NCBI GenBank assembly: GCA_902774335.1
Contig: CACYHW010000001.1
Location: 86,040-150,039, forward strand
DNA from: an uncultured Bacteroidales bacterium
Lineage (GTDB): Bacteria; Bacteroidota; Bacteroidia; Bacteroidales; Bacteroidaceae
Reading direction: 5' to 3'
DNA: 64,000 bases
Both the position numbers and the translations under genes were made by a program. The notes under the pieces are model-generated. The model was given only the letters and a program-made list of their open reading frames with translations. It made no database searches and was not told the origin of the DNA. The first letter of the stretch is position 1. Each line of letters opens with the position of its first letter. This document shows positions 13,678 through 25,049 of this stretch, piece by piece.

Positions 13678-13734
13678 ATGATTATGACAGCTAACTTTTG
13701 GTGGTGGCGCAACTCGGGATTCAAAAAATCGTGA
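13678..13734 (+). CDS. trpL: trp leader peptide with three tandem Trp codons
   Basis: An 18-codon open frame, MIMTANFWWWRNSGFKKS, with TGG-TGG-TGG at 13699-13707 and stop TGA at 13732. It sits between the trp promoter and a terminator hairpin, 115 nt upstream of trpB. This is the classic layout of ribosome-mediated attenuation: stalling at the Trp codons when Trp-tRNA is scarce would favour an alternative fold and read-through. Initiation could also be at the second ATG (13684). It is too short to be found by ordinary gene callers. Confidence 0.88.
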   Translation: MIMTANFWWWRNSGFKKS

Positions 13735-19374: not shown

Positions 19375-20154
19375 ATGAACAAGATAAACAACGTATTTGC
19401 CAACAGGGGCGACCGCAAGCTGCTGAGCCTCTACTTCTGCGCCGGCGCGCCCACACTGGAGAGCACCGCAAGCGTAATCATGGCCATGCAGAACCGCGGC
19501 ATCGACTTCATTGAGGTGGGCATACCTTTCAGCGACCCGCTGGCCGACGGTCCCGTAATCCAGACCGCAGCCACCAAGGCCCTGCACAACGGCATGTCGC
19601 TGCGCAAGCTCTTTGACCAGCTCAAGCAGATCAAGGACCAGGTTCAGATTCCCCTTATCCTTATGGGATACCTCAACCCCATCCTCCACTACGGCATCGA
19701 GGAGTTCTGCAAGTCATGTGTAGAGAGCGGTGTAAGCGGCATGATCATCCCCGACCTGCCCTTCAACGACTATCTGGAGAGCGTCAAGCCCATTGCCGAC
19801 AGGTATGACCTGCGCGTGATCATGCTCATCACCCCCGAGACATCCGACGAGCGCATCCGCTTTATCGACAGCAACACCGACGGCTTTATATATATGGTAA
19901 GCAGCGCCGCCATCACCGGTGCCCAGAAGAGCTTTGACGACGTCAAGCAGGAGTACTTCCGCCGCATCGACGCCATGAACCTGCGCAACCCCCGCATGAT
20001 AGGTTTCGGAATCAGCAACGCCCAGACCCTCAAGGCCGCCCAGGACAACGCAGCCGGCGCAATCATCGGCTCCAAGTTCGTCACTCTGCTCGACGAGGCC
20101 GGGGGCAATGCCGACGCCGCACTTGACCGTCTGTTTGACGATCTCTCCAAATAA
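19375..20154 (+). CDS. trpA: Tryptophan synthase alpha chain
   Basis: Cleaves indole-3-glycerol phosphate to indole, which is channelled to TrpB. The 259-aa barrel has the catalytic Glu in [19 protein letters not shown], a catalytic Asp in [11 protein letters not shown] and [13 protein letters not shown]. The phosphate-binding region near the end ([16 protein letters not shown]) is normal. Last gene of the trp operon; the his promoter begins only about a dozen nucleotides after its stop and no terminator is seen between, so some read-through into the his leader is possible. Confidence 0.96.
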
Positions 20155-20166
20155 AGGGTCCAATTG

Positions 20167-20198
20167 TTTGCATATGCAAAATAAAGCGACTATTTTTG
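20167..20198 (+). promoter_or_regulatory. his operon promoter
   Basis: TTTG (20167-20170), 20-bp spacer, TATTTTTG (20191-20198). A full consensus match; predicted start about 20205, only a few nucleotides before the leader peptide ATG. Confidence 0.8.
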
Positions 20199-20206
20199 CA
20201 CCCGAA

Positions 20207-20254
20207 ATGAAGAGAATTTTGTCACATCACCATCATCATACCTGCAGATCCTGA
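20207..20254 (+). CDS. hisL: his leader peptide with five tandem His codons
   Basis: Fifteen codons, MKRILSHHHHHTCRS, with CAT-CAC-CAT-CAT-CAT at 20225-20239 and stop TGA. It lies directly after the his promoter and before a strong terminator, 93 nt upstream of hisG. Its translation would sense charged tRNA-His. Mirrors the trp leader 6.5 kb upstream in design. Confidence 0.92.
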   Translation: MKRILSHHHHHTCRS

Positions 20255-20318
20255 TCGGTAGGCTGTGAGTGATGTATTTTTATACAAAGGCTTGCCGATG
20301 CACGGTGAGCCTTTTTTT
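20225..20318 (+). terminator. his attenuator with mutually exclusive hairpins
   Basis: Terminator: aaaggcttgccg (20286-20297) pairs fully with cggtgagccttt (20303-20314; two G-U pairs), loop atgca, then seven T. Antiterminator: tcggtaggct (20255-20264) pairs over all ten positions with ggcttgccga (20289-20298), using the same strand of the terminator. Pause hairpin: catcac in the His codons (20225-20230) pairs with gtgatg (20269-20274). Ribosome stalling at the His codons would free the antiterminator. Confidence 0.88.
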
Positions 20319-20347
20319 GTTGACTGAAAATATTAAAACTTAACGAT

Positions 20348-21199
20348 ATGCTTAGAATAGCTGTACAATCAAAAGGTCGTTTATACGACGAGACAATGGA
20401 ACTGCTCCAGGAATCAGGAATCAGCCTGGGGGTATCCAAGAGAACACTTCTGGTGCAGGCCGGCAACTTCCCGGTCGAGGTACTGTTCCTGCGTGACGAT
20501 GACATACCCCAGTCGGTTGCCGGCGGTGTGGCCGATGTAGGTATCGTAGGCGAGAACGAGTTCGTGGAGCGTGCCGAGAAGGCCGATGTCATCAAGCGTC
20601 TGGGATTCAGCCGCTGCCGTCTGTCACTTGCCATCCCCAAGGCCATCGACTACAAGGGTCTTGAGTGGTTCAACGGCAAGAAGGTTGCCACCTCCTACCC
20701 CGGTATCCTCAAGTCATTCTTTGACAAGAACGGTATCAAGGCCGAGACCCATGTCATTACCGGTTCCGTTGAGATTGCACCGGGCATTGGTCTGGCCGAT
20801 GCCATCTTTGATATCGTAAGTTCAGGCTCAACCCTGGTAAGCAACAACCTGCGCGAGGTCGAGGTTGTTATGCAGTCCGAGGCCCTGCTCATCGGCAACC
20901 CCAACATGGATGCCGAGAAGAAAGCCATCCTCGAGGAGCTTCTGTTCCGCTTTGACGCCGTCAAGGCTGCCCAGGGTAAGAAGTACATCATGATGAACGT
21001 GCCTGACACATGCCTCAACGAGGTAATCGCCGAGCTGCCGGGAATCAAGAGCCCCACCGTCATGCCTCTGGCAACCAAGGGTTGGAGCTCGGTTCACACC
21101 GTACTTGACGAGAAGCGTTTCTGGGAGATTATCGGCAAGCTTAAGGCTGCCGGTGCCGAGGGCATCCTTGTCCTCCCCATTGAGAAGATGATTCTCTAA
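20348..21199 (+). CDS. hisG: ATP phosphoribosyltransferase, long form
   Basis: First step of histidine synthesis: joins ATP and PRPP. The 283-aa length includes the C-terminal regulatory (ACT-like) domain from about residue 210 (KYIMMNVPDTCLNEVIAELPG, then PTVMPLATKGWSSVHTVL), so it is the long form that is His-inhibited and needs no HisZ. Catalytic core motifs: KGRLYDETM, GVADVGIVGENEF, ATSYPGILKSFF and the PRPP loop ITGSVEIAPGIGLADAIFDIVSSGSTL. First structural gene after the attenuator. Confidence 0.96.
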   Translation: MLRIAVQSKGRLYDETMELLQESGISLGVSKRTLLVQAGNFPVEVLFLRDDDIPQSVAGGVADVGIVGENEFVERAEKADVIKRLGFSRCRLSLAIPKAIDYKGLEWFNGKKVATSYPGILKSFFDKNGIKAETHVITGSVEIAPGIGLADAIFDIVSSGSTLVSNNLREVEVVMQSEALLIGNPNMDAEKKAILEELLFRFDAVKAAQGKKYIMMNVPDTCLNEVIAELPGIKSPTVMPLATKGWSSVHTVLDEKRFWEIIGKLKAAGAEGILVLPIEKMIL

Positions 21200-21200
21200 G

Positions 21201-21228
21201 AATTGAGAATTGAAAATTGAAAATTGAA
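21201..21228 (+). repeat. AATTGAG tandem repeat between hisG and hisD
   Basis: Four heptamer-like units of the aattgag/aattgaa type fill the space between the hisG stop and the hisD ATG. The hisG stop TAA abuts the first unit. Confidence 0.85.
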
Positions 21229-22515
21229 ATGAAAGTAGTAAAATATCCGTCCAAGTCTGATTGGAAGCAACTGTTGAGTCGTCCCGCGCTGAGCGTGGAG
21301 GGACTCTACGATCGCGTTCAGAGCGTGCTTGACAAAGTTCGCAACGGAGGCGATGCCGCATTGCGCGAGTTGGAGTTTCAGTTCGACAAGGTCCAGCTGG
21401 ATTCACTTGCAGTAAGCCAGGCCGAGCTTGATGAGGCTGCCGCACTGGTACCTGCCGAGCTTCGCAGCGCCATAGACCGCGCCGCCGTGAACATCCGCAA
21501 GTTCCATGAGTCCCAACTGCCGCAGCTGAGCAAGGTTGAGACCTCTCCCGGTGTAATCTGCTGGCAGAAGGCAGTGCCCATCACAAAGGTTGGCCTCTAC
21601 ATCCCCGGCGGCACGGCACCCCTGTTCTCCACCGTACTGATGCTGGCCATTCCCGCCCGCACCGCAGGCTGCTCAGAGATTGTTCTGTGCACACCTCCGG
21701 GACGTGACGGTAAGGTCAACCCCGCCATACTCTACGCCGCGCAGGTGGCAGGCGTAAACCGCTTCTTCAAACTGGGCGGTTCACAGGCCGTCGCCGCCAT
21801 GGCATACGGCACAGAGAGCATACCCAAGGTATCCAAGATATTCGGCCCCGGCAACCCCTACGTTACCGCCGCCAAGCAGATAGTATCACTTAAGGATGTG
21901 GCAATCGATATGCCCGCAGGCCCGTCGGAGGTCGAGGTCATAGCCGATGCCCAAGCCAACCCCGCATTCGTGGCTGCCGACCTGCTTTCACAGGCCGAGC
22001 ACGGACGCGACAGCCAGGTAATCCTGCTCACCACATCGGCAGAACTCATTGATAAGGTTCAGGCCGAGGTTGACCGTCAGGTACCCCTGCTGCCCCGCAA
22101 CGAGATTGCCCAGGCTTCACTGCAGAACAGCCGCATGATACTGCTCAGCAACGACGATGAGATAATCGAGATGACCAACGAGTATGCTCCCGAGCATCTG
22201 ATCATCCAGACTCAGAATGCATCGGAACTTGCAGAGCGCGTTGTAAACGCAGGTTCAGTGTTCATCGGCCCCTGGTCACCCGAGAGTGCGGGCGACTATG
22301 CATCGGGCACCAACCACACCCTGCCCACCAGCGGCTATGCCAAGGCTTACTCCGGTGTCAACCTGGACAGCTTTATGCGCAAGATCACCTTCCAGCAGCT
22401 TACTCAGGAGGGACTCAACTCACTTGGTCCCGTTATTGAGACCATGGCTGCCGGAGAGTATCTGGATGCGCACAAGAACGCAGTAACCATCCGCATTGCG
22501 GAAATTGAGAATTGA
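21229..22515 (+). CDS. hisD: Histidinol dehydrogenase
   Basis: Oxidises L-histidinol to L-histidine with two NAD+ and a Zn ion. The 428-aa product has YIPGGTAPLFSTVLMLAIPA, FGPGNPYVTAAKQ, DMPAGPSEVEVIAD, LLSQAEHGRDSQ (Zn ligands Gln and His) and the C-terminal EHLIIQT-NHTLPTSGYAKAYSG region with the catalytic Glu/His. An in-frame TTG 12 nt upstream lies in the repeat, so the ATG was used. The final codons and stop (GAA ATT GAG AAT TGA) belong to an AATTGAG repeat unit. Confidence 0.95.
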   Translation: MKVVKYPSKSDWKQLLSRPALSVEGLYDRVQSVLDKVRNGGDAALRELEFQFDKVQLDSLAVSQAELDEAAALVPAELRSAIDRAAVNIRKFHESQLPQLSKVETSPGVICWQKAVPITKVGLYIPGGTAPLFSTVLMLAIPARTAGCSEIVLCTPPGRDGKVNPAILYAAQVAGVNRFFKLGGSQAVAAMAYGTESIPKVSKIFGPGNPYVTAAKQIVSLKDVAIDMPAGPSEVEVIADAQANPAFVAADLLSQAEHGRDSQVILLTTSAELIDKVQAEVDRQVPLLPRNEIAQASLQNSRMILLSNDDEIIEMTNEYAPEHLIIQTQNASELAERVVNAGSVFIGPWSPESAGDYASGTNHTLPTSGYAKAYSGVNLDSFMRKITFQQLTQEGLNSLGPVIETMAAGEYLDAHKNAVTIRIAEIEN

Positions 22516-22620
22516 GAATGGAGAATGGAGAATTGTATGGGAATGGAGAATTGATGGTTTTTTATTGGGAATAACGCCCCGCATGGCTAATTCTCAATTC
22601 TAAATTCTCAATTCTAAATT
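22503..22620. repeat. AATTGAG repeat with inverted copy, hisD-hisC gap
   Basis: Sense-strand aattgag and aatggag units from the hisD stop onward, a unique centre of about 50 nt, then inverted aattctc/aattcta units up to 11 nt before hisC. Same layout as at 3933 and 52361. Confidence 0.85.
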
Positions 22621-22631
22621 AACACATAAAT

Positions 22632-23765
22632 ATGAAAGAGCTTAAACAATTAGTCCGTCCTAATATCTGGAGCCTGAGCCCGTACACATCGGCCCGCGAC
22701 GAGTACCAGGGCAAGGACGCCAAGGTGTTCCTGGACGCCAACGAGAACCCCTACAACGATCCGGTGAACCGTTATCCGGACCCGCTGCAGCGTGACCTCA
22801 AGGTGCGCATCGCAGCCATCAAGGACGTTCCCGTGCAGGACATATTCCTGGGCAATGGCAGCGACGAGGCCATCGACCTGATGTACCGCATATTCTGCAC
22901 CCCGGGAGTTGACAACGCCGTGGCCATCGAGCCCACCTACGGCATGTACGGTGTTTGCGCCGATATCAACGGCGTGGAGTACCGCCGCGTGCTCATGAAC
23001 GACGACTTCCAGCCCAGCTACGACAAGATAATGGCCGCAGTTGACGCCAACACCAAGCTGGTGTTCTTCTGCTCGCCCAACAACCCCAGCGCCAATAACA
23101 TTGACCGCACAGTCATTGACAGGGTGCTCGACAACTTTGACGGAATAGTGATTGTGGACGAGGCCTACATTGACTTTGCAGGTGTCCCCTCCTATCTGCG
23201 TCAGTTGGAGAGCCGTCCCAACCTGATTGTGCTCCAGACATTCTCCAAGGCGTGGGGAATGGCCGGAATCCGTCTGGGAATGGCATTTGCGCAGCCCGAG
23301 ATCATAGGCATCATGAACAAGGTCAAGTATCCCTACAACATCAACCTGCTCACACAGCAGCGCGCCATGGAGGAGGTGATGCAGTACAACCGCGTTCAGG
23401 GCTGGGTTGACTCCATCCTCAAGGAGCGTACACGCTTGATGGAAGAGTTCGCCAAGCTGGATTGCTGTATCAAGGTCTACCCCTCCGATGCCAATTTCTT
23501 CCTGGCACGCGTCAAGGATGCCGCCGCCACCTACAACTACCTGGTGGATCAGGGCATCATTGTCCGTAACCGCAGCAAGATTGCCCTTTGCGGCAACTCC
23601 CTGCGCGTAACAATTGGTACAGCACCAGAAAATAATGCGCTCATTGACTCACTGAAGAAGTTCTCCAGTTGCACCAAGAAAAACCAAAACGTAGTGGTGG
23701 TTTTTTCCGGCCCGGAGGGACGGCAGAGCGAAGTGAAACGAAGCGAGTTTTCAGCAGAAAACTAA
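22632..23765 (+). CDS. hisC: Histidinol-phosphate aminotransferase with unusual C-terminal tail
   Basis: PLP enzyme converting imidazole-acetol phosphate to histidinol phosphate. Family motifs: DANENPYND at the N-terminus, [41 protein letters not shown], and the PLP lysine in [16 protein letters not shown]. Normal HisC homology ends near ALIDSLKKF at about residue 343; the last 34 residues (from SSCTKKNQ to SEFSAEN) look unlike protein and arise from low-complexity intergenic-like DNA. The true stop may once have been earlier. Confidence 0.93.
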
Positions 23766-23875
23766 AAAAAGGTTGTCTCTGATACGCAGATAAATATACA
23801 TCCCGAGGCTTTAAGCCGAAGGTGATTAAAGCCCAAAAATAACGAACCGCGAAGCGGTGAGAAAAAGAGAGTAAT

Positions 23876-24991
23876 ATGAAAAAGAGGGTATTATTCATTG
23901 ACCGTGACGGAACAATAGTAGTTGAGCCGTCCGACGAGCAGCTTGACAGCTTTGACAAGCTGGAGTTTGTACCGGGAGTGTTCAAGAGCCTTTCGTTCCT
24001 GCGCGACCACACCGACTTTGAGTTCGTGATGGCCAGCAATCAGGACGGACTGGGTACCGACTCGTATCCCGAGAAGGATTTCTATCCCACTCACAACCTG
24101 ATTATGAATACCCTTAAAGGCGAGGGCGTGGAGTTTGACGACATCCTGATAGACCGTCACTTTCCCCAGGACAACGCCCCCACACGCAAGCCCGGCACAG
24201 GCATGTTCGGCAAGTATATGACCGATGAGTACGACCTCAGCGCCAGCTACGTGATTGGCGACCGCGCCACCGACGTAGAGCTGGCCCGCAACCTGGGCTG
24301 CCGCGCCATCCTGCTTCAGGAGAGCGCCGACACTCTGCCCGCCGACCTCAAAGCCGTATGCGCCCTTGCCACCCGCGACTGGTGGAAGGTTGCCGAGTTC
24401 GTCTTTGCAGGCGAGCGTCGCGCATCGGCCCACCGCGCCACCAAGGAGACCGACATTCTGGTCGAGCTCAACGTGGACGGCACAGGCAAGTGCGACATCA
24501 GCACCGGACTTGGATTCTTTGACCACATGCTTGAACAGATAGGCCGTCACGGAGGTATGGACCTGACCATCAAGGTCAAGGGAGACCTCTACGTAGACGA
24601 GCACCACACAATCGAGGATACCGGCATCGTGCTGGGCGAATGTATCCGCAAGGCACTGGGCGACAAGCGCGGCATTGAGCGCTACGGCTATGCCCTGCCC
24701 ATGGACGATTGCATGGCTCAGGTGGTTCTGGACTTTGGAGGCCGCAGCTGGCTGGTATGGAACGCCGAGTTCCGCCGCGAGAAGATTGGCGAAATGCCTA
24801 CCGAGATGTTCCTGCACTTCTTCAAGTCCCTCAGCGACGCCGCCGCCATGAACCTCAACGTCCAGGCCCAGGGCGACAACGAGCACCACAAGATCGAGGC
24901 CATCTTCAAGGCCTTCGCCCGCGCCCTAAAACAGGCCGTCCGCCGCGACATCTGGAACTACACCCTCCCCTCATCCAAGGGAGTTCTTTGA
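23876..24991 (+). CDS. hisB: Bifunctional histidinol-phosphatase / imidazoleglycerol-phosphate dehydratase
   Basis: The N-terminal HAD phosphatase domain (about 1-165) has the nucleophile motif FIDRDGT (Asp9, Asp11) and SNQDGLG; the C-terminal IGPD domain (about 180-371) has the paired metal motifs [14 protein letters not shown] and [11 protein letters not shown] and [12 protein letters not shown]. The fusion carries out steps 6 and 8 of the pathway. In the phosphatase domain, the zinc-loop cysteines of the E. coli enzyme are missing (here [16 protein letters not shown]). It is the last his gene here; hisH, hisA, hisF and hisIE are not in the window. Confidence 0.95.
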
Positions 24992-24993
24992 GA

Positions 24994-25049
24994 TGACAAA
25001 GGGGACGGTTCCGTTTGGCTCGAGCCAAACGGAACCGTCCCCTTTGTCA
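24994..25049. repeat. GGGGACGG palindrome, perfect 56-bp copy
   Basis: Perfect 28-bp arms meeting at ctcgag. Sits between the convergent hisB and fbp genes, 3 nt after the hisB stop and 6 nt from the fbp stop. Core identical to the copy at 11173. Confidence 0.92.

Follow-up and report, generated by a model that had tools for sequence, protein, structure and literature searches.

A probable histidine attenuator before hisG in Bacteroidota, with a predicted near-leaderless start in one genus

The region between trpA and hisG

The 64,000-nucleotide stretch of uncultured Bacteroidales DNA analysed here (referred to below as the window) carries a histidine operon, hisGDC[NB], directly downstream of a tryptophan operon. 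According to the ORF list, trpA ends at 20154, 52 nt upstream of the ATG of a short leader ORF that precedes hisG (Table 1). Two kinds of repeat accompany the his genes. Low-complexity repeats of the GAATTGAGAATGGAGAAT type occupy the gap between hisD and hisC (22500-22631), and a palindromic hairpin repeat lies at 24995-25048, between hisNB and a convergent gene. The latter belongs to a REP-like repeat family, the half-site of which (24 bases, up to two mismatches) is found 46 times in forward and 48 times in reverse orientation in the genome, while the reversed-pattern control gives none.

Table 1. Positions of the his leader, the his genes and the trp leader in the window
Feature	Position	Strand	Basis
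-33 promoter element, TTTG	20167..20170	+	exact distance of 20 bp from the end of its TTG to the -7 box
-7 promoter box TATTTTTG, Bacteroidota TAnnTTTG type	20191..20198	+	sequence; spacing conserved in the genus
Predicted 5' UTR of about 4 nt, start about 20203	20203..20206	+	predicted from box placement in PMC9723704
Leader ORF MKRILSHHHHHTCRS with stop	20207..20254	+	sequence
Sensor, five tandem His codons	20225..20239	+	sequence; CAT and CAC alternate among 24 aligned leaders
1:2 hairpin (anti-antiterminator, possible pause hairpin)	20224..20275	+	fold; best conserved at about 20241-20262
Segment 2, 5' arm of the antiterminator	20255..20264	+	pairing, conservation
Segment 3, 3' arm of the antiterminator, overlapping the left arm of the terminator	20289..20298	+	pairing, conservation
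Intrinsic terminator (3:4) with T7 tract (20312-20318)	20286..20318	+	predicted structure, conservation
hisG, first structural gene	20348..21199	+	NCBIfam TIGR00070, 192.1 bits, over cut-off; 47% identity to E. coli HisG
hisD, hisC, hisNB (bifunctional HisB)	21220..24991	+	NCBIfam TIGR00069, TIGR01141 and NF003937, over cut-off
trp leader ORF MIMTANFWWWRNSGFKKS before trpB	13678..13734	+	strong terminator; WWW leaders in relatives

A preliminary description of this stretch had proposed a five-His leader peptide before hisG, a strong terminator behind it and an upstream segment that pairs with the left arm of the terminator at all ten positions, and all three features are present. The five His codons stand in tandem within the leader ORF, and the terminator hairpin (20286-20314, 12 bp) runs into a T7 tract about 30 nt upstream of the hisG start, which it leaves uncovered. 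Segments 2 and 3 pair at 10 of 10 positions, three of them G-U, and as segment 3 overlaps the left arm of the terminator, the antiterminator (2:3) and the terminator (3:4) are mutually exclusive. In a third hairpin (1:2) the RNA of the ORF (segment 1) pairs with the antiterminator arm; it is composite, with an inner helix formed by the codons 3' of the His run and the antiterminator arm, and an outer helix that takes in the His codons. None of 200 shuffles was as stable as the leader strand (z = -3.96). The fold of the full strand, combining 1:2 and 3:4, amounts to -37.1 kcal/mol, the 2:3 pairing to -16.4 kcal/mol, and 3:4 together with the small hairpin before it to -18.9 kcal/mol.

As a chance control, the window was Markov-resampled 30 times and searched for ORFs of 8-40 aa that contain any residue three times in a row, together with a terminator. 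They occur 0.63 times per resampled window (maximum 2) and twice in the real one, as the trp and the his leader. Because 0.63 are expected per resampled window, a run followed by a terminator is not strong evidence by itself; the case for a predicted his leader rests on the match between the repeated residue and the operon, and on conservation.

Conservation, spacing and distribution of the leader

Both the His run and the antiterminator, the conservation of which the preliminary description had proposed to check, are kept by most members of the genus and across much of the wider phylum. In the genus alignment (31 rows), 99.4% of cells retain the terminator pairs, two of which show changes on both sides, and 83.0% retain those of the 1:2 hairpin, where both partners have changed at nine pairs, a number that 1 of 500 shuffles reached. 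Within the latter, the inner helix is paired in 86.5% of cells versus 76.4% for the outer one, so that the previously proposed hairpin involving the His codons, which may act as a pause hairpin, does exist, but as part of a composite structure in which the His-codon helix is the less conserved portion. The antiterminator pairs are retained in 97.7% of cells, versus 16-56% for slid pairings. Covariation gives no support to the antiterminator within the genus (329 of 500 shuffles reach its percentage of pairing and 463 of 500 its covariation score), because its columns barely vary. Swapping terminator arms between loci was uninformative (mean -14.3 kcal/mol for a locus's own arm, -13.1 kcal/mol after the swap), because the arm GGCTTGCCG is so conserved. 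The His run is conserved with exchange of CAT and CAC, both of which are used at each of the last three His positions of the 24 aligned leaders; as these leaders were aligned by the end of the cluster, a His at the last position is built in.

The antiterminator was also compared with dinucleotide shuffles locus by locus. The test initially began at the stop codon, where 48 of 66 loci reached p<=0.05, and missed segment 2 wherever it lies inside the ORF; restarted after the last His codon, a change made after the first result was seen, it was passed by 52 of 63 loci and later by 79 of the 92 loci with leader and terminator (26/29 within the genus and 53/63 beyond it). The 13 leaders that miss p<=0.05 include L006, L025 and L030 of the genus (p 0.060-0.066). 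E. coli hisL, as positive control, passes with p 0.007.

The position of segment 2 is tied to the His codons. In the window leader it starts about 14 nt past the last of them, and in 66 of the 79 significant loci the distance is 11-18 nt (range 4-21), with 26/26 in the genus and 40/53 outside. Outside the genus its start varies with a standard deviation of 3.8 nt when measured from the last His codon versus 8.2 nt from the stop codon, and often lies at or before the stop codon (38/53). Downstream of the codon that it translates, a ribosome covers about 12 nt (PMC4833913), so that a stall on the His codons would just leave segment 2 free, while a ribosome moving on would cover it. This accounts for the conservation of the residues that follow the His run, TCRS within the genus and endings of SQA type in a portion of the class sample, since they are antiterminator RNA.

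To describe the distribution of the leader, hisG upstream regions were gathered regardless of whether a leader was present. One source were 50 loci, drawn from 48 of the 51 relatives in which hisG had a match; another were 80 named loci, the best 80 of at least 586 confirmed. The third, a phylum sample of 148 genomes including the window's, gave a hisG match in 128 and added 66 upstream regions besides the window's own, comprising 29 loci and 37 stretches. Of the 196 loci in total, L026, L051 and L097 were dropped as identical to retained loci over the last 120 nt and L009 as very similar to L002, leaving 192.

A His-cluster ORF followed by a terminator precedes hisG in 92 of these 192 regions. 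Another 13 have a His-rich ORF and no terminator by the criterion used, two of which (L005, L034) are counted there only through the anchoring of the region, and 87 have no leader by this criterion, among them L035 and L036, which are closely related to the window's genome. In the phylum sample, each of the 32 genomes from the same class that have a hisG match carries a short His-rich ORF, which is followed by a terminator in 24; one of the eight without terminator, L151, is a doubtful GTG-start ORF. No such ORF was found in the 19 fetched loci with a distant HisG (<=34% identity). Among the named loci the leader is present in Bacteroides (13/13), Phocaeicola (4/4) and Paraprevotella (3/3), in 4 of 14 others (two of the four being duplicates, L051 of L017 and L097 of L092) and in 1 of 46 labelled Prevotella, two of which have less than 150 nt of upstream sequence. 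The leader predicted from these sequences is thus widespread but patchy across the phylum, and where it is lacking, within the genus (L035, L036) as well as in Prevotella, we take this as loss. Searched with a covariance model of the leader, the genome of the window gives one strong match, located before hisG (E 8e-26; next best 8e-4).

Several loci depart from this picture in their details. The Mediterranea locus L103, scored as lacking the leader, retains a degenerate one with two His codons, and 7 of 8 upstream regions inspected among the Prevotella-labelled loci (within L052-L130) show a TAnnTTTG box shortly before hisG. In the phylum sample, L132, L135, L168-L172 and L176-L178 have short His-rich ORFs before hisG without a terminator by the criterion used. 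Some of the terminator-less ORFs are long and very His-rich, such as MRKNSLHIIYHHGVHHAHHGHHHISVQ with its GTG start. ORFs of this type may act on translation or through Rho.

The probable attenuation mechanism, its alternatives and known systems

We consider it very probable that the element is a ribosome-mediated transcription attenuator, which places hisGDC[NB] under the control of histidyl-tRNA charging. Its sequence, alternative pairings, conservation and geometry are directly established. From them we infer how transcription would start, terminate or read through, and respond to histidine. Transcription would begin with a 5' UTR of about 4 nt. Under shortage of charged tRNA-His, the ribosome would stall on the His codons and segment 2 would remain free to pair with the emerging segment 3; formation of 2:3 would then block the 3:4 terminator, and the his operon would be transcribed. 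With plentiful histidine, the ribosome would pass the His codons to the stop codon and cover segment 2, and 3:4 would terminate transcription. Without translation the most stable fold, 1:2 with 3:4, would likewise be expected to terminate. As the fold of the single strand favours the terminator, antitermination would therefore rest on the order of transcription.

The proximity of trpA, only 52 nt from the leader ATG, and the 0.63 chance occurrences of a run with terminator per resampled window would also fit a hairpin that merely terminates the upstream trp operon, with the His ORF being incidental. Against this, among L001-L031, as far as their fetched flanks reach (at most 1.5 kb, in some loci far less), trpA lies 5' of hisG in L001 only, whereas the leader and terminator persist in the relatives, and a TAnnTTTG promoter stands directly before the leader in 29 of 35 genus loci. 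We rejected this reading on the lack of trpA in the relatives' fetched flanks and regard it as highly improbable; judging from these flanks, the adjoining trp and his operons look peculiar to this genome. Somewhat less improbable, though still very unlikely, is that the leader acts on the translation of hisG, or via Rho, rather than through an intrinsic terminator. The terminator-less His-rich ORFs of some lineages, e.g. L132, speak for it and such variants may exist elsewhere; the hairpin of the window, however, has its T7 tract and ends too far upstream to cover the hisG start.

A structured pair of terminator and antiterminator, taken alone, would equally fit a T-box, a riboswitch or a protein-binding leader with an untranslated ORF. 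Yet no Rfam family matches at cut-off, the weak matches to cyano_het_sRNA (20.2 bits) and Thr_leader (18.8 bits) staying below theirs, and His clusters recur in otherwise dissimilar leader ORFs, with exchange of CAT and CAC in the genus. A T-box or riboswitch was rejected, as the cut-off of the T-box model was not reached either, and we give a leader of this general type barely more than a one-in-a-hundred chance. The conserved His cluster might also point to a functional His-rich micropeptide, for instance a metal-binding one. The residues N-terminal to the cluster vary freely, however, and those after it match pairing RNA; the micropeptide was rejected on both grounds and its probability is negligible.

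The classical translation-coupled attenuator is best known from proteobacteria. As a ribosome-mediated attenuator, the window leader resembles E. coli hisL (RF00514) in its tandem His codons before hisG, its intrinsic terminator and its competing antiterminator, and the HisG proteins are 47% identical. It has what characterises a classical his attenuator, namely a tandem-His ORF directly upstream of the his genes, a predicted terminator and, judged by energies and geometry, an antiterminator that excludes it and would be free during a stall on the His codons but covered once the ribosome is at the stop. RF00514 (cut-off 49 bits) nevertheless matches neither the window nor 12 other Bacteroidota loci, while the E. 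coli control scores 131.6 bits. The leaders also differ in the promoter and in the near-leaderless start predicted here, and by the same method the competing segment begins 41 nt past the last His codon in E. coli versus 14 nt here. In E. coli it belongs to a relay of several hairpins. Bacteroid-trp (RF01692), from the same phylum, likewise combines a leader peptide with an amino-acid operon, but it concerns another amino acid and another sequence, and it has no match at the his leader.

These data indicate that a classical attenuator of simple, direct layout and clear spacing would be widespread before hisG in Bacteroidota, common gut genera included. To our knowledge, transcription-translation coupling has been little studied in this phylum, for which the his leader provides a testable claim.

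Upstream of hisG in Flavobacterium psychrophilum, a structured element was reported that is conserved among other Flavobacteriaceae and has no match in Rfam, along with clues to leader-peptide attenuation before amino-acid biosynthesis operons (PMC9723704). As that study already names a structured element before hisG, the his leader is mainly a known kind of switch; the text of PMC9723704 available to us does not give the anatomy of the element, whereas anatomy, spacing and distribution are described here. Statements of that paper aside, our search of the open-access literature, as far as texts were accessible, returned no Bacteroidota his leader of such anatomy. His leaders with three to five consecutive His codons, terminator and antiterminator were described by comparative genomics in Firmicutes, that is, in another phylum (PMC9413887, in the accessible main text of which "Bacteroid*" has no occurrence). 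Short ORFs reminiscent of attenuation leaders in general are mentioned in PMC7366714. The bifunctional hisNB is present in all Bacteroidetes considered in PMC8305728, where transfer from gammaproteobacteria is discussed.

Predicted near-leaderless start and other leader ORFs of the genome

The feature that sets the genus variant apart is the position of its promoter, which in the window is a strong call. In 29 of the 35 genus loci examined, the leader ATG stands exactly 8 nt past the TAnnTTTG box, and in 28 of these 29 a TTG lies exactly 20 bp before the box. As this box sits at -12 to -5 in Flavobacterium (PMC9723704), the +1 position is expected near 20203 and the 5' UTR would be about 4 nt long. 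The earlier suggestion of a start only a few nucleotides before the ATG thus holds as a prediction from the promoter. Spacings of 20-30 nt between box and ATG occur in L027, L029 and L033 of the genus (in L029 and L033, 26 and 30 nt to the chosen ATG), and in L030 the distance is 27 nt to the innermost ATG and 9 nt to an earlier in-frame one. Among the 63 leaders from outside the genus, a box could be located for 49, at 16-35 nt in 41, at 5-10 nt in five and beyond 40 nt in three. For comparison, 5' UTRs of less than 10 nt make up about 3.7% in B. thetaiotaomicron (PMC7366714), and leaderless mRNAs 5.5% in F. psychrophilum; flavobacteria are described as having no Shine-Dalgarno sequences (PMC9723704). 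The near-leaderless start predicted for the genus is therefore unusual.

We used the covariance model of the his leader to look at further sites in the same genome, where it gave weak matches at the trp leader (23.6 bits) and at a Gln/Asn-rich leader (30.5 bits). Of nine weak sites inspected, L234, L237 and L242 are leader ORFs; the remaining six, L235, L236 and L238-L241, look like plain gene-end terminators or show no clear leader, so that weak matches of this model mostly reflect terminators. The Gln/Asn-rich ORF, MFIGFKNITAVQLNNNQQQNNQNQNNNQVPMVIPFDRSGM, lies outside the window (L234:158-280, G000:C7) and is followed by a terminator and by genes for a PII (glnK-like) protein and an ammonium transporter, names that stem from NCBIfam matches below the curated cut-off, with the transporter incomplete in the stretch examined. 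Relatives carry it in L244-L262 and L267, giving 21 of 30 PII-relative loci (21/22 in the genus, 0/7 outside, L272 unread); the genus loci with the leader all have at least 90% PII identity, and the one genus locus that lacks it, L263, has 69%. In the 20 leaders measured, Gln is always encoded by CAG (147 CAG versus 0 CAA). Segment 2 and the terminator arm are complementary there in two matched sequence variants, 17 of 20 reaching p<=0.05 (range 0.003-0.1). This ORF is possibly an attenuator of nitrogen uptake responding to Gln/Asn-tRNA, and as such a candidate it is more unusual than the Trp and Val/Ile leaders of the same genome. Among the matches listed in our literature search there was nothing similar before glnK-amtB.

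Combining these observations, we find it slightly better than an even chance that the genus has a near-leaderless his attenuator (TTG-20-TAnnTTTG-8-ATG, UTR of about 4 nt) with instant ribosome loading, within an attenuation network that reaches nitrogen uptake. Since only about 4 nt would precede the start codon, a ribosome could load once the ATG leaves RNA polymerase. If this is true, the near-leaderless start may give a lineage described, for flavobacteria, as having no Shine-Dalgarno sequences the tight transcription-translation coupling that attenuation needs, and the network would extend past biosynthetic operons to glnK-amtB through the Gln/Asn leader.

The neighbouring trp operon had been described as sharing the design of the his leader, and attenuation as a general mode in the lineage. 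The former stands as regards the leader ORF and the strong terminator, but the antiterminator, judged by its energy of -7.8 kcal/mol, is only weakly seen. The latter is borne out in part: leader ORFs precede trp, ilvD and glnK-amtB genes in the same genome, whereas no leader candidate was found before its thrA and pheA, and 45 of 46 Prevotella-labelled loci have no his leader by the criterion used. Before ilvD, a Val/Ile-rich leader, MYNLSVITFIVDVVVVGPAR, stands with a strong terminator (L180, G000:C4, minus strand, start 1138). Similar branched-chain-rich leaders were seen in 9 of 30 ilvD loci, own included, with no start located in 4 of the 30; L274 and L276, with 97-98% identical IlvD, have no Val/Ile-rich leader. 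The trp leader of the window scores 42.8 bits (E 0.013) against RF01692, below the cut-off of 49, and a Trp-rich leader is present in 14 of 20 trpB upstream regions examined, own included, always with WWW except for one WRW. In two of these, L205 and L215 (genomes G016 and G019), the first ATG follows the box by 8 nt, the other 12 having 19-34 nt, with 34 nt in the window's own trp leader.
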